Positions 19,687 through 53,483 of a stretch of DNA of 53,483 bases are shown in pieces. The translations under genes and the position numbers were made by a program. The stretch spans positions 1 through 53,483 of the IMG/VR virus record IMGVR_UViG_3300027777_001908, one strand, 5' to 3'. The notes below the pieces were generated by a model that was not told where the DNA came from, ran no database searches, and saw only the letters and a program-made list of their open reading frames with translations. Source of the DNA: a virus. The stretch's first letter is position 1. Each line of letters begins with the position of its first letter.

Positions 19687-19759
19687 GCCTCCTTAGCTCA
19701 GATGGTAGAGCGTATCATTTGTAATGATAATGTCATTGGTTCGATTCCGATAGGAGGCT
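19687..19759 (+). tRNA. tRNA-Thr (UGU)
   Basis: Full cloverleaf: acceptor GCCTCCT/AGGAGGC, D arm GCTC/GAGC, anticodon stem TATCA/TGATA with loop TTTGTAA (anticodon TGT), T arm ATTGG-TTCGATT-CCGAT. CCA is not encoded. Confidence 0.95.
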
Positions 19760-19791
19760 CACTTGAACTTTTTTTTATTAAATTATATATT

Positions 19792-20139
19792 ATGTCTCAT
19801 CCAAACCTTCACGCAAAATCATCTGCCAAAAAATTTGGTGGAAAACCTGAAGATTATATCCATTTACATGAATGGTTAGATGAAACCAAGTCATGGTTTG
19901 GTGATTCACTCCATAGAATGTGGAGACATCATAGCGAAGGCATTTTTGAGATGGAGAAAAGGTTTGGATCTGAATTTAAAAATAGTGATGGAAAGATAGT
20001 TTATACCAGATATGTTGGTGAACAACATGTTAAAGAAGATTGTAATAATTATATTCCAAGCGCAAAAGAATGGGTTAATAATATCTCAACAAATCAGCGT
20101 CCCCAATGGATGACCAGAACACTTAAAGTAGAAGATTAG
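19792..20139 (+). CDS. DUF6915 family protein
   Basis: 115 residues from the ATG at 19792; a longer in-frame start at 19702 lies inside tRNA-Thr and is rejected. The sequence has HAKSSAKKFGGKPEDYIHLHEW, HRMWRHHSEGIFEMEKRFG and YVGEQHVKEDCNNYIPSAKEW, the ordered conserved blocks of DUF6915, a small His-rich family seen in bacteria and phages. The many histidines hint at metal binding, but the activity is unknown. It follows tRNA-Thr in the same transcript. Confidence 0.75.
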   Translation: MSHPNLHAKSSAKKFGGKPEDYIHLHEWLDETKSWFGDSLHRMWRHHSEGIFEMEKRFGSEFKNSDGKIVYTRYVGEQHVKEDCNNYIPSAKEWVNNISTNQRPQWMTRTLKVED

Positions 20140-20152
20140 TATATTTACTGTT

Positions 20153-20884
20153 ATGAGAAGAAAAATTAACACAACACAGATATTAACGCCAGACGATAAA
20201 AAATATTTAAGAAGAATTTCCAATTATCTTAATTCTTTGGGAATGCAAGATGGTAACATTGAAATTGATATGGATGGACGATACGGTGATCTCAGTAGTA
20301 TAAACTATATGCAACTCACCCACTTTTCTAATAATTATTCAGCCGAATTACCATTAGGGTTAACTCAAATTGTTGAAAAAATCATGAAATATATTGATTC
20401 AGAAGGATTATATAATGAACCTGATGTTGATGATACAAATTATGAAAGATTGGATATTGATATTGATACAAGAACAAAAGAAATATCTGTTAATCATTGG
20501 TGGTCATATTATGATAAAGGAGATTCAAACTCAATTGAATTTGATGCCCAAGAAGATTTGGAACAATTTGATAATTGGAGAAGTGATGAATTTGGTACAA
20601 TAGAGATTCCTGAATCAGGAATATTAACATTAAAATATAATGGTGGAGGAGATTCAGGATATATTGATAGTGATTTTGATGAAACTGGTGACCATGTACC
20701 AGCAGGAGTTGAAGATTGGTGTTATAAGGTACTTGAAGATAACTTTGGTGGGTGGGAAATTAATGAAGGTTCTGATGGTGAATTTGTTTTTGATTTTAAT
20801 AATTCAATGGTTACATTAAATCATACAATGAACATAGAATCAAATGATACTGATACCATTTATGAAGAAAGTTTTGCAGAATAA
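20153..20884 (+). CDS. Acidic hypothetical protein
   Basis: 243 residues, strongly acidic, with repeated aromatic/Asp stretches such as ISVNHWWSYYDKGD and VEDWCYKVLEDNFGGWEINEG. The N-terminus is basic (MRRKINTTQILTPDDKKYLRR). It follows the DUF6915 gene with a 13-base gap containing TATTTACT, a weak variant of the late box. No family is recognised. A strong terminator follows. Confidence 0.6.
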   Translation: MRRKINTTQILTPDDKKYLRRISNYLNSLGMQDGNIEIDMDGRYGDLSSINYMQLTHFSNNYSAELPLGLTQIVEKIMKYIDSEGLYNEPDVDDTNYERLDIDIDTRTKEISVNHWWSYYDKGDSNSIEFDAQEDLEQFDNWRSDEFGTIEIPESGILTLKYNGGGDSGYIDSDFDETGDHVPAGVEDWCYKVLEDNFGGWEINEGSDGEFVFDFNNSMVTLNHTMNIESNDTDTIYEESFAE

Positions 20885-20908
20885 AATATTCTAACAAATT
20901 AAAATGTT

Positions 20909-20933
20909 AATCCCACCCCATAAAGGTGGGATT
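20909..20933 (+). terminator. Intrinsic terminator
   Basis: A 9-bp stem AATCCCACC/GGTGGGATT with a 7-base loop and a TTT tail after the gene ending at 20884. Confidence 0.85.
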
Positions 20934-20949
20934 TTTAATTTATTTTTCA

Positions 20950-20957
20950 TATCTTTG
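20950..20957 (+). promoter_or_regulatory. TATCTTTG -7 element for the tRNA-Arg transcript
   Basis: TATCTTTG 14 bases before tRNA-Arg; the -33 position holds a T-rich run rather than a clear TTTG. Confidence 0.55.
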
Positions 20958-20971
20958 TTAAGAAATATAAT

Positions 20972-21046
20972 GGTTCGGTAGCTCAGTTGGATAGTAGCGA
21001 CAGCCTTCTAAGCTGTAGGTCATTGGTTCAACTCCAATCCGGATCA
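20972..21046 (+). tRNA. tRNA-Arg (UCU)
   Basis: Acceptor GGTTCGG/CCGGATC with two G-U pairs, anticodon stem ACAGC/GCTGT with loop CTTCTAA (anticodon TCT), T arm ATTGG-TTCAACT-CCAAT. The D stem is short (GCT/AGC). AGA is the main Arg codon in AT-rich phages. Confidence 0.9.
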
Positions 21047-21158
21047 CAATATCATATCTTCAGGTACCCGTACCGCTAACGTAGGGTTAAATAAGATACA
21101 ATTTCGTACTACATTTGTGTAGGAGCGGGAAGTAGAATGCCTGTCTGATGTGATTAAT
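21047..21158 (+). ncRNA. Structured RNA segment between tRNA-Arg and a tRNA-Leu remnant
   Basis: No open frame. TATCTT pairs with AAGATA around an inner TACCC/GGGTA-type stem, followed by a hairpin CTACA-TTTG-TGTAG. The segment is probably part of the tRNA transcript, comparable in position to the stable RNAs C and D of T4, but no known family is recognised. Confidence 0.35.
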
Positions 21159-21202
21159 ACCCCGATGGTGGAATGATAGACACGTATGTTTTATACGTCC
21201 AA
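21159..21202 (+). pseudogene. Truncated tRNA-Leu-like 5' half
   Basis: CCCCGATGGTGGAATGATAGACAC matches the start and D arm of bacterial tRNA-Leu (usual GGTGGAATNGGTAGACAC), but the D loop lacks its GG pair, the following hairpin (ACGTA, loop TGTTTTA, TACGT) has no usable anticodon, and no T arm follows. The 3' end of the 21191-21616 gene occupies the place of the missing half. Confidence 0.5.
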
Positions 21203-21616
21203 AATAAATTGATATTTTCCTGTTTTAAATTTTTGGTGATACCCTTCTCTAAAAACAGTATAAATTACAAAATCCCAAATATTACCTCTTTTGTTATTTG
21301 GTCCGATTGCAATTGATAACGACCATTTTTTACTCCGCATAACAAATGGTATGTTTGAAATAATTTCATCGTTTTTTATTGACTTCAAAATATCTTTAAT
21401 ATATAAATTCAAAAATTCAAGTAACTCTTCTTTTGTTATTTCTCTTTCATCATAAAATTCAATGTCATATCTTCCCTTCCCTCTTTGATTAGAATGATAA
21501 GTTGTTTTTATGTTAAAAACATAAGATTCTCCATCATAATTCAAACGAATTTTTCCAATTAGTTCGGCAGATTCTAACAATAAAGTTTCTTTAATTATTT
21601 CACGTAAATCTTTCAT
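21191..21616 (-). CDS. Hypothetical protein with a gp21-type leader motif
   Basis: 141 residues. The N-terminus MKDLREIIKETLLLESAELI resembles the helical leaders of other proteins of this phage, with LLE15 followed by S16 as a possible processing site. The rest alternates charged strands (GKIRLNYDGESYVFNIKTTY, GRYDIEFYDEREI) and ends YQFILDV; no family is recognised. The gene is antisense to its neighbours and its 3' end overlaps the tRNA-Leu remnant. A TATTTATA box precedes the start. Confidence 0.55.
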   Translation of the reverse strand: MKDLREIIKETLLLESAELIGKIRLNYDGESYVFNIKTTYHSNQRGKGRYDIEFYDEREITKEELLEFLNLYIKDILKSIKNDEIISNIPFVMRSKKWSLSIAIGPNNKRGNIWDFVIYTVFREGYHQKFKTGKYQFILDV

Positions 21617-21620
21617 TAAT

Positions 21621-21628
21621 TATAAATA
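21621..21628 (-). promoter_or_regulatory. TATTTATA late-type promoter box
   Basis: On the minus strand TATTTATA ends 4 bases before the ATG of the 21191-21616 gene. Confidence 0.45.
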
Positions 21629-21653
21629 TTCTTAATACTGTAATAAAAAAATA

Positions 21654-21684
21654 TTTGACAATTTGAAGATATTCCTTACCTTTG
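21654..21684 (+). promoter_or_regulatory. Bacteroidota-type promoter
   Basis: TTTG (21654-21657), 19 bases, TACCTTTG (21677-21684). It lies 16 bases before a 30-codon frame. Confidence 0.7.
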
Positions 21685-21700
21685 ATATAATTATAATAAC

Positions 21701-21793
21701 ATGAACACTACAACGCATAATATAATCTTTAATAAACAACAAGAGAATTGTTGGTATGAGATTATGCCTTGTAGTTCAGATGGTAAGAAGTAA
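21701..21793 (+). CDS. Micro-ORF of 30 codons with its own promoter and terminator
   Basis: Reads MNTTTHNIIFNKQQENCWYE and ends IMPCSSDGKK. It is too short to judge by composition, but it sits between a good TTTG/TACCTTTG promoter and a terminator at 21821, so the transcript is real in outline. It could be a small protein, a leader peptide or simply part of a small RNA. The stretch TAGTTCAGATGGTAAGAA near its end mimics a tRNA D arm. Confidence 0.35.
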   Translation: MNTTTHNIIFNKQQENCWYEIMPCSSDGKK

Positions 21794-21820
21794 AATTCCT
21801 GATGTATATTCATATACAAG

Positions 21821-21853
21821 CCCTGAACGACAGAAATGGAGTTCGGGGTTTTT
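21821..21853 (+). terminator. Intrinsic terminator
   Basis: An 8-bp stem CCCTGAAC/GTTCGGGG with a 12-base loop followed by TTTTTTATTTTT. Confidence 0.8.
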
Positions 21854-21857
21854 TATT

Positions 21858-21889
21858 TTTGGATGTTTGAAATATTGTTTGTATCTTTG
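21858..21889 (+). promoter_or_regulatory. Bacteroidota-type promoter of the second tRNA transcript
   Basis: TTTG (21858-21861), exactly 20 bases, TATCTTTG (21882-21889), directly after a terminator and upstream of the tRNA-like elements at 22023-22346. Confidence 0.75.
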
Positions 21890-21951
21890 TAAAACAAATG
21901 TTGTGTTGGACAAATTGTTTTTAAGGTTTCATTCTGCAACCTCAAAGAATA

Positions 21952-21991
21952 ATGACAAAGTCGGAAGTAAAAGTGTGACAAAGTCGGAAGT
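21952..21991 (+). repeat. Direct repeat of 16 bases spanning two overlapping micro-frames
   Basis: TGACAAAGTCGGAAGT occurs at 21953-21968 and 21976-21991, preceded by A then G. The first copy opens an 8-codon frame (MTKSEVKV) whose stop overlaps the GTG start of a 31-codon frame opened by the second copy. Confidence 0.6.
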
Positions 21992-22070
21992 TATTAAAGT
22001 TAAAGACTTTAAATTTATATTTGGTCAACTGCGTAATGAGGGATGGTGCCCAAGTCCAGTAAAATGGTAG
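21975..22070 (+). CDS. Possible micro-ORF of 31 codons (GTG start)
   Basis: Reads MTKSEVIKVKDFKFIFGQLR and ends NEGWCPSPVKW if the GTG at 21975 is used. It follows the TATCTTTG promoter and the short overlapping frame. Its 3' half overlaps the 5' arm of the tRNA-like element at 22023, so both cannot be fully independent. The coding case is weak. Confidence 0.25.
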   Translation: MTKSEVIKVKDFKFIFGQLRNEGWCPSPVKW

Positions 22071-22101
22071 CCTTGTGTAGGTTCGATTCCTATGTTGACC
22101 A
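22023..22101 (+). pseudogene. Aberrant tRNA-like element with acceptor stem and T arm only
   Basis: GGTCAAC (22023-22029) pairs perfectly with GTTGACC (22094-22100), and a canonical T arm GTAGG-TTCGATT-CCTAT precedes the 3' strand. The intervening 47 bases form no D arm and no 5-bp/7-base anticodon arm that I can find. It is either a decayed tRNA or a tRNA-like RNA with another role. Confidence 0.45.
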
Positions 22102-22176
22102 CGGAGTCCCGAAATAACGGGAAACCCCCACTCCCATATGGCAGCCAGTCCGTTAAGCTGGTCAAGTGGGGTATAT
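22102..22176 (+). ncRNA. Structured RNA with an Asn-like anticodon hairpin and no T arm
   Basis: CCCCACT (22126-22132) pairs with AGTGGGG (22165-22171) around a hairpin CCAGT/GCTGG with loop CCGTTAA, an Asn(GUU)-type loop but with C instead of U at position 33. There is no T arm. Upstream, CCCG/CGGG and GGAGT/ACTCC can form a competing fold. Confidence 0.35.
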
Positions 22177-22346
22177 AGTCAGGTGGCGGAATTGGTAGAC
22201 GCACACATTAACTCGCAAGGTTGATATTGTATGATAGACGTAAGCGGACATCATACAGGAGTGGCAAAACGCTTGTGGTACTGTTGCAACAGTAAATTGA
22301 AGAGAAAACCACAAATGGCATACAGGTTCGATCCCTGTTCTGACTA
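22177..22346 (+). tRNA. tRNA-Leu-like gene carrying about 85 extra bases
   Basis: Acceptor AGTCAGG/TCTGACT, a tRNA-Leu-type D region GGTGGCGGAATTGGTAGACGC and T arm ACAGG-TTCGATC-CCTGT are all intact, but the element is 170 bases instead of about 85. A possible anticodon arm is TTAAC-TCGCAAG-GTTGA (208-224), followed by two extra helices: TGTATGAT/ATCATACA (22228-22257) and TTGTGGT/ACCACAA (22273-22314) enclosing TACTGTTGCAACAGTA. No group I intron core is visible. It may be an intron-bearing, giant-variable-arm or non-decoding tRNA. Confidence 0.55.
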
Positions 22347-22361
22347 CAAAAAGTATGTATT

Positions 22362-22595
22362 ATGAAAGCAATTTTGGAATTTAATTTGCCTGATGATAAT
22401 CAAGAATTTTTATTGGCAACAAGTGGAACTAAATTTTGGTCTGTATTGTGGGAATTGGACCAGTCTTTAAGGTCTAAGACCAAATATGCTCCTGATGATT
22501 TACCACAAGAAAAGTATGATGCTTATCAAGAGATTAGAGATAAACTTCATGAGTTAATGTCGGATAATAATGTTAATTTTGATATGGTTGAATAA
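22362..22595 (+). CDS. Conserved small phage protein
   Basis: 77 residues: MKAILEFNLPDDNQEFLLAT, then FWSVLWELDQSLRSKTKY, and YDAYQEIRDKLHELMSDNN. The order of LEFNLP...EF.LA, a Trp/Leu-rich helix with LD..LR and a C-terminal IR.KL.EL helix is a pattern I know from hypothetical proteins of many large phages, where it usually travels with replication or tRNA genes. Function unknown. It begins 15 bases after the Leu-like element. Confidence 0.65.
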   Translation: MKAILEFNLPDDNQEFLLATSGTKFWSVLWELDQSLRSKTKYAPDDLPQEKYDAYQEIRDKLHELMSDNNVNFDMVE

Positions 22596-22605
22596 AACAA
22601 AAATT

Positions 22606-22824
22606 ATGATGGAAAGAACATTTAATAGTGATGATTTGTCTTGGATTGCATTCGGTTTAAAAGAATATAGTCGCTCAATGGATTATGAAGGTGATTTAAG
22701 TGATTGTGGTAATGAAATTGGGAATATGGTTGGGAGTAAATATAAAAATATGACTGAGGGTGAGATTGAAGATTTTATCACAGGAATAAGACATGGGATT
22801 TCATTAACAAATGGAACACATTAA
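22606..22824 (+). CDS. Small acidic hypothetical protein
   Basis: 72 residues from the ATG at 22606 (MMERTFNSDDLSWIAFGLKE); the frame could open earlier inside the previous gene but the gap and A-rich leader AAAACAAAAATT favour this start. It is acidic with a compact helical look (EGEIEDFITGIRHGISLTNG). No family is recognised. It ends 5 bases before tRNA-Cys. Confidence 0.55.
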   Translation: MMERTFNSDDLSWIAFGLKEYSRSMDYEGDLSDCGNEIGNMVGSKYKNMTEGEIEDFITGIRHGISLTNGTH

Positions 22825-22829
22825 GGTAT

Positions 22830-22901
22830 GGTCGGTTGGCCGAGTGGTTTAGGTATTTGTCTGCAAAACAAATTAGTTCAGTTCAATTCTGAAACCGACC
22901 T
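22830..22901 (+). tRNA. tRNA-Cys (GCA)
   Basis: Acceptor GGTCGGT/ACCGACC, D arm GGCC...GG, anticodon stem TTTGT/ACAAA with loop CTGCAAA (anticodon GCA), T arm CAGTTCAATTCTG. CCA not encoded. Confidence 0.92.
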
Positions 22902-22902
22902 C

Positions 22903-23022
22903 ATGACAAAAAAACAAATTGACGAACAAGTTAAAGCAATTAGAATATTAACTAAAAGGGTTTGTAAAAATAAAAAATCTGCTCGTAAGTTTCTTATTAA
23001 GGCGGGGATTATAAAAAAATAA
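22903..23022 (+). CDS. Small basic hypothetical protein (39 residues)
   Basis: Starts one base after tRNA-Cys: MTKKQIDEQVKAIRILTKRV, then CKNKKSARKFLIKAGIIKK. It is very basic with a K/R-rich helix ending KKSARKFLIKAGI, a pattern common in small phage DNA- or RNA-binding proteins. An upstream in-frame ATG at 22828 would run through the tRNA and is rejected. It is followed directly by tRNA-Asn. Confidence 0.55.
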   Translation: MTKKQIDEQVKAIRILTKRVCKNKKSARKFLIKAGIIKK

Positions 23023-23034
23023 TGAGAACGGAAC

Positions 23035-23106
23035 GTCTCCTTAGCTCAGTGGTAGAGCATCTCGCTGTTAACGAGAGGGTCCAAGGTTCAAATCCTTGAG
23101 GGGACG
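23035..23106 (+). tRNA. tRNA-Asn (GUU)
   Basis: Acceptor GTCTCCT/AGGGGAC, D arm GCTC/GAGC, anticodon stem TCTCG/CGAGA with loop CTGTTAA (anticodon GTT), T arm CAAGG-TTCAAAT-CCTTG, discriminator G. Confidence 0.95.
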
Positions 23107-23119
23107 CAAAAAAATAAAT

Positions 23120-23190
23120 GCGTGTATGATGTAACGGTAGCATGAATCTCTCCAAAAGATTTCGTTCCTGTTCAAATCGGGATATGCGTG
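23120..23190 (+). tRNA. tRNA-Trp (CCA)
   Basis: Anticodon stem AATCT/AGATT with loop CTCCAAA (anticodon CCA), T arm TCCTG-TTCAAAT-CGGGA, D arm ATG/CAT. The acceptor GCGTGTA/TATGCGT has three G-U pairs, weak but acceptable. Confidence 0.8.
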
Positions 23191-23195
23191 CAAAA

Positions 23196-44444: not shown

Positions 44445-46205
44445 GTGACTAAAGAACAATTAATTATAGAAGTTACGAAGTGCATGAGGAACACACCTTA
44501 CGCACTTCGTACTTATTTACAGACATTTGATAATACCGTATCCAAATACGTTCCATTAGATTTATTTCCAGATCAAATCAAACTAATTGAAGATTATGAT
44601 GCTTACAATGAAAATGTGGCATTAAAGTATAGACAAGCAGGTGTATCTACTGTTACCGCAGCATGGGCATCAAAAAAAGTAGCATTTGCCAAAAAAAGTA
44701 AGCCAGAAAAAATTCTAATCATTGCCAATAAATTGGATACTGCCGTAGAAATGGCAAATAAAGTTAGAGGTTTTACAGAACAATGGCCTGCTTGGGTAGG
44801 CATTGGATTCTCACAAGAAAAAAACTCACAAAGACATTTCAAACTCAATAATGATTGTGAGGTTAAAGCCGTTGCGACATCAAAAGATGCCCTTCGTGGT
44901 TATACCCCAACCATACTGATATTTGATGAAGCTGCATACATTGAAGCAGACAGTGATTTCTGGTCTGCTTGTATGGCCTCACTATCTACGGGTGGTAAGG
45001 TTATTGTTGTATCCACACCAAATGGATATGACCCAATCTATTATGAAATTTATGACCAGTCATTAAGAGGAATGAATGATTTCAAAATCTCTGAAATGTA
45101 CTGGTATAAAGACCCAAGATATACAAAAGATTTGTATATGGTTAAAACTCCTGATTTAGTTCATTTTTTATTAAACAGAGAAGAGTACCCTAAAGATACT
45201 ATTGTTAGTTTACATAATGAAAATCCTTATGAAAGAGATTTAGAAGTAGTTAAAGACTATATGGACCAAGGATACAAACCATGTTCATCTTGGTTTGAAG
45301 GAATGGTTAAAAAATTAAAATTTGATAGAAGAAGAGTTGCCCAAGAGTTGGAATGTAACTTTTTAGGTTCAGGTGATAACGTATTTGATTCTGATTTAAT
45401 GCAGAACATTTCCAAAAATCAAGTAAGAGAACCACAAGCCAAAATGATGGGAGGAAATCTTTGGATATTTAAAGAACCTGAAAACGGACATAAGTACGTT
45501 ATGGGTGTGGATGTATCCAGAGGGGATTCTGAGGATTTTAGTTGTATTGAGATAATTGACTTTGATACAAGGGAACAAGTTCTTGAATATGTCGGAAAAG
45601 TCCCACCAGACGTAACTGCAGAGATAGCCTATAAGTGGGGAACAATGTATAATGCTTATTGTGTGGTAGATTTAACTGGTGGAATGGGGGTTGCTACTGC
45701 AAGAAAAATGCAAGAATTACAATATGCTGGTGGAATGTATGTTGATAATATTGATACAAGTAATAAGTGGAAATACGATCCAAAATTAAATGAAAAAATT
45801 CCTGGTATAAATTTCAATAATAAAAGAGTTCAAATTATTGCTTCTCTTGAAGAAGCGGTTAGACATGAATTTAAAGTTTATTCACATAGATTATATAATG
45901 AAATGAATACTTTTATCTATGTAAATGGAAGACCTGACCATCAAAAAGGTCATCATGATGACTGTATTATGGCAATATCTATGGCAATTTATGTTGCAGA
46001 AAAATCTTTTCAATCTCTCACAAAAGTTGTTAATCATACAAAAGCTATGTTAAATTCTTGGTCTACAGTGGTTAATGAAAATAAAAATTCTTCAGAATTT
46101 TTTAATCCAATGGTCCCACAAATGGGACGAGATAGTAGACAATATAACTCTGGTCCAACAAAAAAAGACTATGAAACATATGGTTGGTTATTTGGTGTTA
46201 AATAA
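44445..46205 (+). CDS. terL: Terminase large subunit (gp17-like)
   Basis: 586 residues from a GTG at 44445. ATPase half: Walker A-like RQAGVST (63-69), Walker B ILIFDEA (157-163) with the catalytic E162, and the coupling motif STPNG (190-194). Nuclease half: GVDVSRGDSED with D356, VVDLTGG with D409 and HHDDCIMA with D505/D506, the RNase H-like two-metal site. The enzyme translocates DNA into the prohead and cuts concatemers, docking on the portal encoded next. All motifs needed for both activities are present. Confidence 0.95.
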   Translation: MTKEQLIIEVTKCMRNTPYALRTYLQTFDNTVSKYVPLDLFPDQIKLIEDYDAYNENVALKYRQAGVSTVTAAWASKKVAFAKKSKPEKILIIANKLDTAVEMANKVRGFTEQWPAWVGIGFSQEKNSQRHFKLNNDCEVKAVATSKDALRGYTPTILIFDEAAYIEADSDFWSACMASLSTGGKVIVVSTPNGYDPIYYEIYDQSLRGMNDFKISEMYWYKDPRYTKDLYMVKTPDLVHFLLNREEYPKDTIVSLHNENPYERDLEVVKDYMDQGYKPCSSWFEGMVKKLKFDRRRVAQELECNFLGSGDNVFDSDLMQNISKNQVREPQAKMMGGNLWIFKEPENGHKYVMGVDVSRGDSEDFSCIEIIDFDTREQVLEYVGKVPPDVTAEIAYKWGTMYNAYCVVDLTGGMGVATARKMQELQYAGGMYVDNIDTSNKWKYDPKLNEKIPGINFNNKRVQIIASLEEAVRHEFKVYSHRLYNEMNTFIYVNGRPDHQKGHHDDCIMAISMAIYVAEKSFQSLTKVVNHTKAMLNSWSTVVNENKNSSEFFNPMVPQMGRDSRQYNSGPTKKDYETYGWLFGVK

Positions 46206-46243: not shown

Positions 46244-48070
46244 ATGAGTAATCAAAATCTAACCGTTTGGCAACGTTTGTCCAAAACTTTTGGGCCAAAT
46301 TCTTTGTTGAATCAAGATTATCCAACTTTTAAGTTTGATAAAAAAGAATTATTGCGTACCCCTAATCGTGATGAATATGAAAAGGAAAAATTACAAGCGC
46401 AACAAACATTTTATTTATCAGGTCAATGGGCAAAAGTTGAGAATAATATGTATTCTCAGGCAATGTACTATGAGCCAACAAGACTTTCTGCTCAGTATGA
46501 TTATGAATCAATGGAGTATACTCCTGAGATTTCAGCAGCATTAGATATCTACGCCGAAGAATCAACTACAACAAATGAAGACGGATTTATTTTACAAATT
46601 TATTCTGAATCAAAACGTATTAAATCTGTATTGGCTGATTTATTTAATAACTCTTTGGATATTAACACCAACTTACCAATGTGGACAAGAAATACTTGTA
46701 AGTATGGTGATAACTTTGTTTACTTAAAACTTGACCCTGAAAAAGGTATTGTTGGAGTTCAACAACTTCCAACAATTGAAATTGAAAGACATGAAGCAGG
46801 TGCAGGCGCAAAAATAACAGTTAATATTGAAAAACCTGAAAAACCAAAAGCATTAGAATTTACTTGGAAAAATAAAAATATGACTTTCCAATCATGGGAA
46901 ATTGCGCATTTTAGATTATTAGGTGATGATAGAAAACTTCCGTATGGTACTTCTATGTTAGAAAAGGCAAGAAGAATTTGGAAACAATTATTATTGTCTG
47001 AAGATGCGATGTTAATTTATCGTACATCAAGAGCCCCTGAAAGAAGAATGTTCAAAGTATTTGTGGGAAATATGAATGATGATGATGTGGAAGCATATGT
47101 TCAACGTGTTGCCAATAAATTTAAAAGAGAACAAATTGTTGATAAAAATACAGGTAATGTAGATATGAGATTTAATCAAATGGCGGTTGACCAAGATTAT
47201 TTCATTCCTGTTAGAGATCCGGCAGCTCCTGATCCAATTACAACATTACCAGGAGCAACAAACTTATCTGAAATTGCGGATATTGAATATATTCAAAAGA
47301 AATTATTAACAGCCCTTCGTGTTCCAAAAGCATTTTTAGGATTTGAAGAAGTTGTTGGTGATGGTAAGAATTTAGCATTAATGGATATTCGGTTTGCCAG
47401 AACAATTAATAGAATTCAAAAAAGTATGTTGCAAGAATTAAACAAAATTGCAATTGTACATCTATTTTTATTAGGATTTGAAGATGAACTTTCAAACTTT
47501 ACATTAGGACTTAGTAATCCATCAACACAGGCAGACTTGTTGAAAATTGATGTATGGAAAGAAAAAGTTTTGCTTTACAAAGACCTTGTTGCAGATCCAG
47601 GAAATGGTATTCAAGCGACTTCATCTACATGGGCTAAAAAACACATTTTTGGATGGTCTGATGAAGAAATTAGATTGGATTTACAACAACAAAGAATTGA
47701 AAGAGCTGTGGGAGAAGAACTTAAAGCAACTCCAACAGTTATTAGTAAAACAGGAATATTTGATAACATTGACAAGTTATATGGTTCATCTTCAGGAGGA
47801 ACGGCATCATCAACATCAACTGAACCTGCTCCACCTGGTGGAGATTTAGGGGGAGGTGATTTAGGAGGAGCGCCACCACCACCAGCACCAGAAGGAGGAA
47901 CTGAAGCACCCCCAACTGAAGGAGCTGTAACACCAGAATCAAGAATGGATAATCTCAATATGTTAGTTGAAAGTAACCTAATTGAGGGCACACAATTTTT
48001 AGATTTAGGACAAGGTCAAGATTCTTTAGGAGAAATGTCAAAAGAATTGGATAAGTTACTAAATTCATAA
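46244..48070 (+). CDS. gp20: Portal protein (gp20-like)
   Basis: 608 residues. The opening region, YTPEISAALDIYAEESTTTN and LDINTNLPMWTRNTCKYGDN, the long clip and wing region, and the block ADIEYIQKKLLTALRVPKAF followed by LGFEE correspond to T4 gp20-type portals, which form the dodecameric gate at the head vertex that the terminase and neck dock to. The C-terminal 90 residues are a Gly/Pro-rich extension (PAPPGGDLGGGDLGGAPPPP) with a final helix, longer than in T4. Located between terminase and protease genes as in T4. Confidence 0.93.
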   Translation: MSNQNLTVWQRLSKTFGPNSLLNQDYPTFKFDKKELLRTPNRDEYEKEKLQAQQTFYLSGQWAKVENNMYSQAMYYEPTRLSAQYDYESMEYTPEISAALDIYAEESTTTNEDGFILQIYSESKRIKSVLADLFNNSLDINTNLPMWTRNTCKYGDNFVYLKLDPEKGIVGVQQLPTIEIERHEAGAGAKITVNIEKPEKPKALEFTWKNKNMTFQSWEIAHFRLLGDDRKLPYGTSMLEKARRIWKQLLLSEDAMLIYRTSRAPERRMFKVFVGNMNDDDVEAYVQRVANKFKREQIVDKNTGNVDMRFNQMAVDQDYFIPVRDPAAPDPITTLPGATNLSEIADIEYIQKKLLTALRVPKAFLGFEEVVGDGKNLALMDIRFARTINRIQKSMLQELNKIAIVHLFLLGFEDELSNFTLGLSNPSTQADLLKIDVWKEKVLLYKDLVADPGNGIQATSSTWAKKHIFGWSDEEIRLDLQQQRIERAVGEELKATPTVISKTGIFDNIDKLYGSSSGGTASSTSTEPAPPGGDLGGGDLGGAPPPPAPEGGTEAPPTEGAVTPESRMDNLNMLVESNLIEGTQFLDLGQGQDSLGEMSKELDKLLNS

Positions 48071-48093: not shown

Positions 48094-48789
48094 ATGACTT
48101 TCGGACAAATAAAATCCATAATTGAAACAAGCTTAATAGAATCCTACAAGAATGAGTCGGATTTTAAAAAATCTTTAAGAGAATTCAAACATAATGTATT
48201 GAATAATAAACCTATGTCAAAGGTCTATTCATTATATGACCAATTAACTACCCCACAAGGATTGTCTGAGTCAGATGCCAAAGAATTCTTAGAAGAAGGT
48301 ATTAATATTATCCAAAAATTATTAAAAGAAATTAAACTACCTAAAACAATTTCCGAATCAAAAAATGAATATTCTGATATTGATACGTTAGTTTATATAA
48401 ATAAAATTAATTTATCCGAAAGAGTTAGTTCAAAGAAAAAAATCATTAATGTTTTAATCTCAGAAAAAAAAACATTAAAAGAAAGTATTAATATTCCAAT
48501 TAAATCAATGGTTAGTATTGCCAATCAAACTCTTAGAAGTTATATTGAAAACCTTACTGAACATGATAAAAAAGAATTTTTACAATTAATTTCTGAAGAT
48601 ACTAAAACTTTAGAAACTAAATTTGAAACACTTAGAGAAAGTACTATAGTTAAATTAAATTCTATTTTGGAAAAAGAAGAAGAGTTTGAAATAAAAACAA
48701 AAATTTCTGAAACAATAGATAGAATTAAAAATGAAAAATTTGACCAATTAAATTTCTTAAAACTAAAAAATTTAGAAGGGTCTATTTAA
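48094..48789 (+). CDS. Helical head-module protein of unknown function
   Basis: 231 residues, almost entirely helical and charged, starting MTFGQIKSIIETSLIESYKN, with LIE16 followed by S17 as a possible processing site, and with coiled segments (KKIINVLISEKKTLKESINI, TKTLETKFETLRESTIVKLN). In T4 the place between portal and protease holds the small core proteins gp67 and gp68, which it might replace. No sequence homology to these is visible. It ends three bases into the antisense bS21 gene and terminates inside it. Confidence 0.55.
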   Translation: MTFGQIKSIIETSLIESYKNESDFKKSLREFKHNVLNNKPMSKVYSLYDQLTTPQGLSESDAKEFLEEGINIIQKLLKEIKLPKTISESKNEYSDIDTLVYINKINLSERVSSKKKIINVLISEKKTLKESINIPIKSMVSIANQTLRSYIENLTEHDKKEFLQLISEDTKTLETKFETLRESTIVKLNSILEKEEEFEIKTKISETIDRIKNEKFDQLNFLKLKNLEGSI

Positions 48790-48968
48790 TTCTTTTTACT
48801 CTGAATATATTTCGCCTTTAAAAGTTCGGTTCTTTTTAGAACCGATTTTTTTTTATACTCTTTTTTTTCAAATAAAAGTTGATTCTGTTTTGTCTTAATT
48901 ACTTTAGATTTTAACAATTTTAAAGCCCTATCAATGTTCTCGTTATTTTTTATTTCAATTATTATCAT
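48786..48968 (-). CDS. rpsU: Ribosomal protein bS21 homologue
   Basis: 60 residues: MIIIEIKNNENIDRALKLLK then a basic helix and SVLKRTELLKAKYIQSKKN. The pattern (I/V)-x-x-K-x-x-ENIDRALK...VxKR-x-x-x-x-KAxYIQ is that of Bacteroidota bS21, a small-subunit protein next to the 3' end of 16S rRNA. Tyr54 is kept at the position that, as I recall from the Flavobacterium ribosome structure, helps to mask the anti-Shine-Dalgarno sequence, while many basic residues differ. It could replace host bS21 and change start-site choice. It is the only minus-strand gene in the head module. An earlier phage bS21 is known from other large phages. Confidence 0.85.
   Translation of the reverse strand: MIIIEIKNNENIDRALKLLKSKVIKTKQNQLLFEKKEYKKKSVLKRTELLKAKYIQSKKN
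48826..48845 (+). terminator. Plus-strand terminator embedded in the bS21 coding sequence
   Basis: An 8-bp stem TCGGTTCT/AGAACCGA with a TTTT loop, followed by TTTTTTTT. It terminates the 48094-48789 transcript and on the other strand encodes part of bS21 (codons for KKSVLKRTEL). Confidence 0.8.
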
Positions 48969-49013
48969 ATATTAAAAATATCTAATTTTTATAAAAATTT
49001 TGATTATTAACTT

Positions 49014-49527: not shown

Positions 49528-49539
49528 TTAAAACAATTG

Positions 49540-50256
49540 ATGAAAAAATTAAGAATATTAGAAGCAAACGAACTTGGACATGGAATCTTAGTTGAAATGG
49601 ATGCCGGTTACATATCTCCAAAAGATAAACTTAATGCCGATATTTTAAAAGAAGCCGCTAATTTGGATTATAGAAATCCATTTGAATTTTATGCGGTATT
49701 ACAAAAATATAATACACCAAACAGAAATGGTAGATTTTATCCTGAAAAGATTCTTAAAAGAGAAGCCGAAAACTATAAAAAGGCAATTGCTAAAGGTTTA
49801 TCAACATCAGAACTAAATCACCCTGAATCATCACTAATTGATTTAGATAGAGTATCACATCTCATCACAGATATTTGGTGGGAAGGAAATATATTGATGG
49901 GTAAAATAAAACTTTTAACATCACCAGGTTTTCATGAAACAGGTGTGGTATCAACTAAAGGAGATATTGCGGCTAACTTAATGAGACAAGGAGTTACTAT
50001 GGGAGTTTCCTCAAGAGGAGTTGGGTCATTAAAAAAAGTTGGAGAAAGAAATGAGGTTCAAGATGATTTTGAATTAATTTGTTTTGACTTAGTATCATCA
50101 CCATCAACACCTGGAGCATATCTTTTTGTAAACCCTGAAGATAGAAATAAATATGAAGAAAATTTAGACGAAGAAAAAAATCGTAAAGATTCAAATCAAT
50201 TTGTAGACAAGTCTGTTGACTTAATGAAAAAATTAAACGATTTTTTAGGAAAATAA
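49540..50256 (+). CDS. gp21: Prohead core protease (gp21-like)
   Basis: 238 residues. TPNRNGRFYPEKI (59-71), SELNHPESS with H94, and GVSSRGVGS with S157 or S158, followed by DFELICFDLVSSPSTPGA, form the conserved blocks of the T4 gp21 / U9 serine protease family, which cleaves head proteins after (I/L)-x-E. ILE8 followed by A9 near its own N-terminus may be a self-processing site. It stands before the scaffold and capsid genes as in T4. Its presence is the basis for reading the (I/L)-x-E sites elsewhere in the window. Confidence 0.92.
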   Translation: MKKLRILEANELGHGILVEMDAGYISPKDKLNADILKEAANLDYRNPFEFYAVLQKYNTPNRNGRFYPEKILKREAENYKKAIAKGLSTSELNHPESSLIDLDRVSHLITDIWWEGNILMGKIKLLTSPGFHETGVVSTKGDIAANLMRQGVTMGVSSRGVGSLKKVGERNEVQDDFELICFDLVSSPSTPGAYLFVNPEDRNKYEENLDEEKNRKDSNQFVDKSVDLMKKLNDFLGK

Positions 50257-50644: not shown

Positions 50645-52291
50645 ATGCAAGAAAATAAAAATTTAGTACAAGAGGCTCTTATTCAAATGAAACAAGTTGA
50701 AGAAGCTATTGCCGAAAATGCAAAAGGAATACTTCATTCTACAATGAAAGAAGAAATCAATCAATTAGTAAAAGAATCTCTCTCAGAACAAGATGATGAA
50801 GAAGAGATTGGTCTAGATACAGACATGGACGACACAGATGTAGATACTGACGTAGATACTGATGTTGACATGAATGTAGATAACGATGAAATGGATATGG
50901 ATGTAGATACAGACATGGACATGGATTCAGAAGAAAGTCCTATAGATTTAACTGACGCATCTGATGAAGAAATTCTGAAAGTGTTCAAAGCTATGGGTGA
51001 AGAAGATGGTATCATTGTTAAAAAAGATGGTAACAATATTCACCTAACAGATGACGACGCTGATACAGAATATCTTGTTAAGCTTGGTGAGTCTGAAGAA
51101 GACGAAGAAATAAATATGAATGAAATGGATGAAATTATGAACCAAGAAACAGACGAATCAGTACAAAAAATTATTGATACTATTTTCTCTAAAAACGGAG
51201 ACACATCAGAAGTTGATTTGGATGATGTAGAATCTGATGATGATTCAGATATGGAAATGGATGAAGAAGTCGTTTACGAAATTCATTTAGATGATGATGA
51301 TGATGATGAAGAATCGGATACGGAAATGGACGAACAAGACAATGATGATGAAGAATCAGACATGGAAATGGACGAACAGGACGAAGATGATGAAGAATCA
51401 GACATGGAAATGGACGAACAGGACGAAGATGATTCTGACATGGATGAATCTTACATTAGAGAAGGTAAATCAACAATTAAACCTAAAGGTGTTGGAATTG
51501 GCTCAGGACCTAAATTCGCTTACAAGAAATCTGCTGGCGGATTTAAAGAGGACAAAAAACAAGGTCCTAAATCAGTAGGTACTGGTAAAGCAAAATTTGA
51601 ATACAAGAAAGGTGGTAACATGGAAGGTAAATCTAAAATTGTTAAAGCTGAAACTAAAGAAGGTCAAGGATACAAAGATAAAGAAGATGAAAGATTGGCT
51701 ATGAAGCACGGTAAAATGGCTTCAAAAGATCTTAAATCTACTAAAGCTCGTAGAGATGATGCTGGATTTGAAAAAGCTGAAACTAAAGAAGCTGCAAGAA
51801 CTTATGGTATGGGTTCTAAAGAAGGCAGAGGTTTGAGAAAAGGTATCACAAACAACAGAAATTACAATTACAGTAATTCTGGAGTTAAAGTAGAATCTAC
51901 AAACGCAGAAGTTAGTATGTTGAGAGAAAAGAACGATGAATATAGAAAAGCATTGAATGTTTTCAGAGAAAAACTTAATGAAGTTGCAATCTTCAATTCA
52001 AACTTAGCTTACGCTACAAGATTGTTCACAGAACATTCAACAACTAAAAAAGAAAAAATAAATATCCTTAGAAGATTTGACGGAGTTGAAACTTTAAAAG
52101 AATCAAAAAGTCTTTATAAGTCTATCAAAGATGAATTAACTAAAGGAGACACACAACCAATTACTGAATCAGTTGAAACAAAATTAAACAAACAAGTTTC
52201 TACAGGTTCATCAGTTAATCTAATTGAGTCTAAAACATATGAAAATCCTCAGTTCTTAAGAATGAAAGATTTGATGTCTAAATTAGGTTAA
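50645..52291 (+). CDS. gp22: Prohead scaffold protein (gp22-like)
   Basis: 548 residues, extremely acidic. An N-terminal helix (MQENKNLVQEALIQMKQVEE) leads to LSE48-Q49, a gp21-type site. Residues 50-280 consist of Asp/Glu/Met repeats such as ESDMEMDEQDEDD. A basic middle region (KSTIKPKGVGIGSGPKFAYK, repeats of KAETKE) is followed by a C-terminal coiled coil with the conserved segment NLAYATRLFTEHSTTKKEKI and NILRRFDGVETLKESK, which I associate with T4-like scaffold proteins. It fills the prohead and is degraded by gp21 before packaging. Confidence 0.8.
   Translation: MQENKNLVQEALIQMKQVEEAIAENAKGILHSTMKEEINQLVKESLSEQDDEEEIGLDTDMDDTDVDTDVDTDVDMNVDNDEMDMDVDTDMDMDSEESPIDLTDASDEEILKVFKAMGEEDGIIVKKDGNNIHLTDDDADTEYLVKLGESEEDEEINMNEMDEIMNQETDESVQKIIDTIFSKNGDTSEVDLDDVESDDDSDMEMDEEVVYEIHLDDDDDDEESDTEMDEQDNDDEESDMEMDEQDEDDEESDMEMDEQDEDDSDMDESYIREGKSTIKPKGVGIGSGPKFAYKKSAGGFKEDKKQGPKSVGTGKAKFEYKKGGNMEGKSKIVKAETKEGQGYKDKEDERLAMKHGKMASKDLKSTKARRDDAGFEKAETKEAARTYGMGSKEGRGLRKGITNNRNYNYSNSGVKVESTNAEVSMLREKNDEYRKALNVFREKLNEVAIFNSNLAYATRLFTEHSTTKKEKINILRRFDGVETLKESKSLYKSIKDELTKGDTQPITESVETKLNKQVSTGSSVNLIESKTYENPQFLRMKDLMSKLG
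51340..51440 (+). repeat. Asp/Glu-coding tandem repeat inside the scaffold gene
   Basis: About 42-base units encoding DDEESDMEMDEQDE, with two nearly exact copies and partial flanking copies. Confidence 0.75.
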
Positions 52292-52325: not shown

Positions 52326-53483
52326 ATGGGAGCATTATTAGAATCAGGTCTTGTTGGTAACATCGGTCTTAAGCACCTTAAAGTTATCAAAGAAGATACA
52401 ATCAACAAATGGGACAAATTAGGCTTTTTAGAAGGTCTTAAAGGTCACATGAGAGAAAACGTAGCACAATTATACGAAAACCAAGCATCATTTTTAATCA
52501 ATGAAGCATCATCTACTTCTGATACAGGAGCATTTGAAACAGTGGTTTTTCCAATCGTTAGACGTGTATTCTCTAAACTATTAGCAAACGATATCGTTTC
52601 AGTACAAGCTATGAACTTACCAATCGGTAAATTGTTCTATTTTGTACCTAACATTCAAGCTTACGAAACAGGTGGAGCAGAATATGGTAATGGTGGAACA
52701 CACTACGCACCTTACGGATCACCAAATGGTCCAGATAGTCCTAACGCAGGTTATGATTACAATGTAGGTAAAGATCTTTATGATAGATTTTATGAAGGTA
52801 CAGAACCAGCATTAGACCCTCCAGGTTTGTTTGACTACTCTAAAGGTGAGTTCTCAGCTGTAACAGGTACTGCAGTAACTGCACTTTGGAATAACACAAC
52901 ATTAAACTTAGAACCAGCTGCTTACGCTTTAACTGATTACAGAAAAGTATTAGTTATTATGTCAGGTTTTGCATCTGATGCAGCAGGTAAATTAATCGGA
53001 CCAGATGGTAACCCAATCGACAACGAATCTTTCTTGTCTGATTTGACTATTTGGGGTATCGGTACTAACACAACTACTTCAGGCACAGGTCAAGGTGGTG
53101 GATCAGGTCCTTACTTATTCAGAGTTGTAACTCAAAGATATGGTAAAGGTATCGTTCAATACGGTAATAACAACCAAACATTAACTTTCCCTAACAGTAA
53201 AACAGGTGGTGGTCAATACGACAACATTTGTGACGCTCAAGGTTTCATTTACTTAGAGGTTGATTTACAAGTTCCAGTATGTATTACTTGTGGCGGTTCT
53301 ATGGACGGTTACACAGGTTCTACTTTCTCTTCTTCAACAGCAAATAACAACGCTTTCGTTCCTACTTATAGAATCTATAAGAACTTGGAATTTGAAGATA
53401 AAATCGGTGAGGTTTCATTTGACTTAATGTCAGTAACAGTTTCTGTGACTGAAAGAAAATTAAGAGCACAATGGTCTCCTGAA
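52326..53483 (+). CDS. gp23: Major capsid protein (gp23-like), 3' end beyond the window
   Basis: 386 codons without a stop, running off the right edge. MGALLESGLVGNIGLKHLKV opens a 60-residue leader that ends FLINE60 followed by A61, the expected prohead-protease site. Next come FPIVRRVFSKLLANDIVSVQ and IGKLFYFVPNIQ, the conserved block of T4-type capsid proteins, and GEVSFDLMSVTVSVTERKLR just before the edge. It forms the hexameric lattice of the head. Codon use is markedly richer in C-ending codons than nearby genes, as expected for a very highly expressed protein. Confidence 0.95.
   Translation, partial: MGALLESGLVGNIGLKHLKVIKEDTINKWDKLGFLEGLKGHMRENVAQLYENQASFLINEASSTSDTGAFETVVFPIVRRVFSKLLANDIVSVQAMNLPIGKLFYFVPNIQAYETGGAEYGNGGTHYAPYGSPNGPDSPNAGYDYNVGKDLYDRFYEGTEPALDPPGLFDYSKGEFSAVTGTAVTALWNNTTLNLEPAAYALTDYRKVLVIMSGFASDAAGKLIGPDGNPIDNESFLSDLTIWGIGTNTTTSGTGQGGGSGPYLFRVVTQRYGKGIVQYGNNNQTLTFPNSKTGGGQYDNICDAQGFIYLEVDLQVPVCITCGGSMDGYTGSTFSSSTANNNAFVPTYRIYKNLEFEDKIGEVSFDLMSVTVSVTERKLRAQWSPE

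Follow-up and report, generated by a model that had tools for sequence, protein, structure and literature searches.

A phage bS21 gene without the extended Shine-Dalgarno sequence of host rpsU, reversed among the head genes of a large Bacteroidetes virus

The locus and its neighbours

The DNA considered here (the window) is a stretch of 53,483 nucleotides from a virus, IMG/VR record IMGVR_UViG_3300027777_001908. Near its end, a short rpsU gene encoding bS21 lies in reverse among head genes (Table 1): TerL and portal stand on one side, and on the other follow the prohead protease, a DUF4494 gene, the scaffold-like gene, and the major head protein. An IMG/VR scan confirmed at least 451 relatives of the phage bS21, of which the best 80 were retained; all head genes found in these 80 are on the strand opposite to bS21. 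The convergent gene (231-238 aa) is present in 79 of the 80, as is the divergent gene (143-147 aa), and the overlap between the bS21 3' end and the convergent gene measures 4-9 bp among relatives. A sequence-only reading of the window had described bS21 as antisense inside the head operon. Reversed relative to the head genes it is; antisense to a gene it is not, since the contact is a mere 4-bp convergent overlap. Nor does "operon" hold: published RNA mapping indicates that the region is not one single operon (PMC9723584).

Table 1. Features of the bS21 region (window coordinates)
Feature	Position	Strand	Remarks
T4-type large terminase (TerL)	44445..46205	+	PF03237
T4-like portal	46244..48070	+	PF07230
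Convergent neighbour, 231 aa	48094..48789	+	Hypothetical protein; 3' end overlaps bS21 by 4 bp
Phage rpsU	48786..48968	-	60-aa bS21, ATG start (48968), TAA stop (48786); Tyr54 kept; phage-specific core L19-KSKVIKTKQNQ-30
Terminator-like hairpin	48826..48854	+ (head-gene strand)	TCGGTTCTTTTTAGAACCGA plus T run, within bS21 codons 41-48
Phage rpsU 5' region	48969..48998	-	No extended Shine-Dalgarno; -0.4 kcal/mol
Conserved AT-rich upstream element	48969..49005	-	ATCAAAATTTTT...AGATATTTTTAATAT
Divergent neighbour, 142 aa	49063..49491	+	Strongly conserved; 94 bp from bS21 start codon
Prohead protease	49537..50256	+	PF03420
Acidic scaffold-like protein	50645..52291	+	Follows the protease gene and precedes the capsid gene; role assigned from position; matches no family
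Major head protein	52326..53483	+	Continues past window end

A bS21 gene among the capsid genes of a large Bacteroidetes virus is an arrangement already published. Chen et al. (2022) described the gene class, its position on the reverse strand of the head region, the Tyr54 residue, and the divergent positions (PMC9723584), and the window's gene belongs to that class, being reversed within the TerL, portal, protease, and MCP region. Likeness to their bS21-bearing Bacteroidetes jumbo phages (clades a-e) covers several features: bS21 reversed between the TerL/portal and protease/capsid genes; a hypothetical gene on either side; Tyr54; a divergent stretch near residues 21-28; and a Bacteroidetes host signal (PMC9723584). 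The present analysis adds the missing autoregulatory Shine-Dalgarno (SD) sequence of phage rpsU and a measurement of SD use in phage genes. Moreover, whereas Chen et al. had two outgroups without bS21_CN (PMC9723584), here a nested clade has lost bS21 and retains both flanking genes. Open-access main texts yielded no earlier mention that phage rpsU lacks the extended SD, that bS21 phages use SD pairing at near-background levels, or that a nested clade has lost the gene; the first and last of these are apparently new.

The divergent neighbour was considered as a bS21 partner and rejected, because it persists in phages lacking bS21 and its confident model (pLDDT 89) found no informative fold match, the sole strong match being A0A8S5L9A5, a myovirus protein that is itself uncharacterised. 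At 19687-23191 of the window, the contig also carries tRNA genes for five amino acids (Thr, Arg, Cys, Asn, and Trp).

A divergent member of the bS21 family

The gene is real. Its reading frame is conserved across the best 80 of at least 451 relatives, with a median pairwise dN/dS of 0.097, and so is not a chance ORF. The sequence-only reading had placed a bS21 homologue at exactly these coordinates and named a profile search as the check, with a missing match as refutation; that search does match Pfam Ribosomal_S21 (PF01165; E 8e-9, 35.5 bits, cut-off 27). The NCBIfam equivalog TIGR00030 gives 22.1 bits, under its cut-off of 28.95, so the protein is a divergent family member rather than a canonical equivalog. 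Its top solved-structure match is the Flavobacterium johnsoniae bS21 (7jil_z; E 3.4e-9), aligned over residues 1-59 without gaps and sharing Tyr54 and probably the fold class (7JIL; PMC9976891). The AlphaFold model (pLDDT 83) has two helices, residues 12-36 and 41-59, and bS21 chains make up eight of its nine structure matches, at Z scores of just 3.2-3.9.

Tyr54 is kept, as the earlier reading had it, and position 54 is aromatic in all 32 distinct proteins from the best 80 of at least 451 relatives (29 Tyr, two His, and one Phe). An aromatic residue here, stacking on A1534, is the criterion of the anti-SD-masking bS21 of Bacteroidia. Keeping Tyr54, the phage protein is a Bacteroidia-type bS21 under purifying selection.

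Of the "divergent basic middle" claimed for the protein, the divergence stands and the basicity does not: residues 18-33 carry a charge of +4, versus +6 in Flavobacteriia. It is the C-terminal part (residues 34-60) that is more basic, at +8 versus +5. The divergence is patterned. L19-K-S-K-V-I-K-T-K-Q28-x-Q30 is invariant in the 32 distinct relatives (again from the best 80 of at least 451) and occurs in none of 54 distinct Flavobacteriia bS21 proteins; set against those 54, the phage proteins show a conserved core with many fixed differences, and the residues common to phage and host are conserved along the whole length. Relative to F. johnsoniae, residues 18, 19, 21, 23, 24, 27-31, and 33 are fixed differently, in addition to the extra C-terminal charge and the lack of an extended SD before the gene. 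More divergent phage bS21s (50-60% identical) have a related KV(I/Y)xTKQ core and unchanged gene order.

The closest cellular bS21, from 295 sampled genomes of the class, is 52% identical. A midpoint-rooted tree sets the phage sequences apart from cellular ones (99/88), a result to be read with caution since it rests on 64 columns. Another bS21, at 2501-2695 of a 72-kb viral contig (L214), falls outside this phage clade: it shares 77% identity with the F. johnsoniae protein and has His replacing Tyr54, and its gene lacks an SD.

Shine-Dalgarno use and natural loss of bS21

In the Bacteroidetes phylum, bS21 gates access to the anti-SD (PMC9976891). McNutt et al. found that the extended SD of F. 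johnsoniae rpsU is read by ribosomes lacking bS21, giving autoregulation, and that bS21-deficient ribosomes are poorer on SD-less mRNAs (PMC9976891). Pairing energies were calculated with the 16S tail GGCTGGAACACCTCCTTTCT, read in three of the four host genomes searched, and an extended SD stronger than -13 kcal/mol served as the criterion for autoregulated Flavobacteriales rpsU. All 80 sampled Flavobacteriia loci (42 distinct 5' regions) have such a sequence, at -17.6 to -22.4 kcal/mol. The 39 distinct 5' regions of phage rpsU all lack one: the best reaches -6.4 kcal/mol, and the window's own, at -0.4 kcal/mol, falls short of the -13 kcal/mol threshold. This absence need not be an adaptation, because some distant Bacteroidota rpsU genes (L185, L189, L190, and L192) also lack an SD.

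Phage genes at large make little use of SD pairing. Energies of -6 kcal/mol or stronger are reached by 3.6% of 366 phage genes versus 2.7% in shuffles, or by 4.1% versus 2.5% with a slightly different 16S tail string: at most a slight excess. Enrichment was rejected, levels being near those of shuffles in phages with and without bS21 alike. (As gene start, the earliest ATG in each ORF of 100 aa or more was used, a rule that somewhat weakens the gene-wide test and leaves the rpsU contrast unaffected.) Start contexts, with A at positions -13 to -10 and at -3 and with T at -1, broadly match those of 281 Flavobacterium genes. Phage mRNAs are essentially SD-less, like host mRNAs. One strong-SD gene, for a DnaB-like helicase (L167 4929-6314), was rejected as a bS21-regulon member because its G-run is not conserved in orthologues.

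The AT-rich element upstream of phage rpsU takes the form TGTCAAAAATTTT-n-AGATATTTnTAATAT-ATG in relatives, and in most of them the full form TGTCAAAAATTTT-n-AGATATTT-n-TAATAT-ATG. A scan of about 410 kb of phage sequence gave no other convincing copy before other phage genes; the bS21 start has no match to flavobacterial -33/-7 promoters, and no Rfam families were found near the locus. The element may possibly be a dedicated promoter or leader element. The terminator-like hairpin inside bS21 was rejected as a conserved device, being retained solely in the window's own subclade.

Nature has also removed the gene. bS21 is missing at nine of the 74 loci that include the divergent gene and extend far enough upstream of it (L281, L284, L285, L289, L303, L304, L306, L321, and L322). 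Their layout runs from the convergent gene through a terminator-like hairpin, then a promoter-like stretch, to the divergent gene. The nine group as a single clade (100/99) nested within the phages that have bS21, and a search of the whole 309-kb contig behind L322 found no bS21. Because this clade lost bS21 and kept both neighbours, at least one lineage can do without bS21, and the flanking genes are independent of it. Start contexts in 290 genes of the bS21-minus phage with the 309-kb contig barely differ from those of bS21-bearing phages; the strongest difference, at position -4, has p ~0.001, uncorrected for 25 positions.

Possible roles of phage bS21

No viral ribosomal protein is commoner than phage bS21. 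That it replaces host bS21 is a published hypothesis (PMC9723584, PMC9976891), which Chen et al. advanced along with the divergent helix (PMC9723584), and it is plausible here. The missing autoregulatory SD and the sister loss clade turn the general idea that phages hijack ribosomes into two concrete questions: is host rpsU repressed by phage bS21, and does translation differ between phages with and without the gene?

We give about an even chance to a late, feedback-free, masking-type bS21 that joins or replaces the host protein and leaves the anti-SD masked; supply or replacement is more likely than a re-tuning of ribosomes toward SD messages. Late in infection, when sister phages express the gene (PMC9723584), phage bS21 would enter 30S subunits, replacing or topping up host bS21. 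Ribosomes so filled would remain anti-SD-masked, a state suited to phage mRNAs because these, like those of the host, lack SD sequences. With ribosomes full, the SD-dependent host rpsU would also be shut down by its own feedback, and supply of the phage protein would increasingly exceed that of host bS21. SD pairing would not account for a preference for phage mRNAs, which would have to stem from the phage-specific helix/loop at residues 19-30; these residues might also help the phage protein to outcompete host bS21, or make it resistant to a factor that targets host bS21. McNutt et al. speculated that a phage protease acts on host bS21 (PMC9976891). Tentatively, and clearly short of an even chance, phage bS21 may itself hijack the host feedback with no protease needed: SD-free and masking-competent, it would leave no 30S subunit without bS21 and shut off host rpsU, thereby replacing host bS21, ordinary ribosomes making it since its gene is SD-free. 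Against masking-type replacement, one phage clade lives without bS21, which is therefore not essential.

A further point against it comes from the pelagiphage HTVC008M, which likewise encodes a bS21 and whose alphaproteobacterial host has SD-based translation. To our knowledge, no phage bS21 has been tested for function except this one, in E. coli. The pelagiphage protein, a separate acquisition, enters E. coli ribosomes and leaves them nearly inactive, with ~5% activity (PMC6375957).

In the SD-independent selectivity put forward by Chen et al., the N-terminal helix/loop peculiar to the phage proteins, close to the mRNA path, would preferentially recruit phage mRNAs. The LKSKVIKTKQxQ core, invariant in the clade, echoed as KV(I/Y)xTKQ in divergent phages, and absent from sampled hosts, fits this, and the same positions are flagged in PMC9723584. 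We nevertheless consider it unlikely, since the analysis found no phage-specific start-site signature: contexts in bS21-bearing phages, bS21-minus phages, and hosts are close, and composition differences, such as that at position -4, are weak.

Host shut-off, in which ribosomes with phage bS21 translate host mRNA poorly and capacity is freed, would agree with the pelagiphage result (PMC6375957). That test used a foreign host, however, phage and host mRNAs have common start features, and bS21 is expressed late, when the phage needs peak translation (PMC9723584); the idea is improbable.

The sequence-only reading had proposed that phage bS21 could alter anti-SD masking in favour of phage mRNAs. 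With SD pairing as the means, this has in its favour that bS21 does gate anti-SD access in this phylum (PMC9976891) and that the protein diverges in its middle part, but the aromatic residue 54 kept in 32 of 32, the near-shuffled SD levels with or without bS21, the host-like start contexts, and the SD-less phage rpsU itself speak against the proposal, which we judge very improbable. Just as poor a prospect is an extra-ribosomal or virion role (a packaged basic protein or RNA binder), raised as possible in PMC9723584 and in keeping with the setting among head genes: the residues common with host bS21 are conserved along the protein, and the gene is reversed, with its own conserved 5' element.
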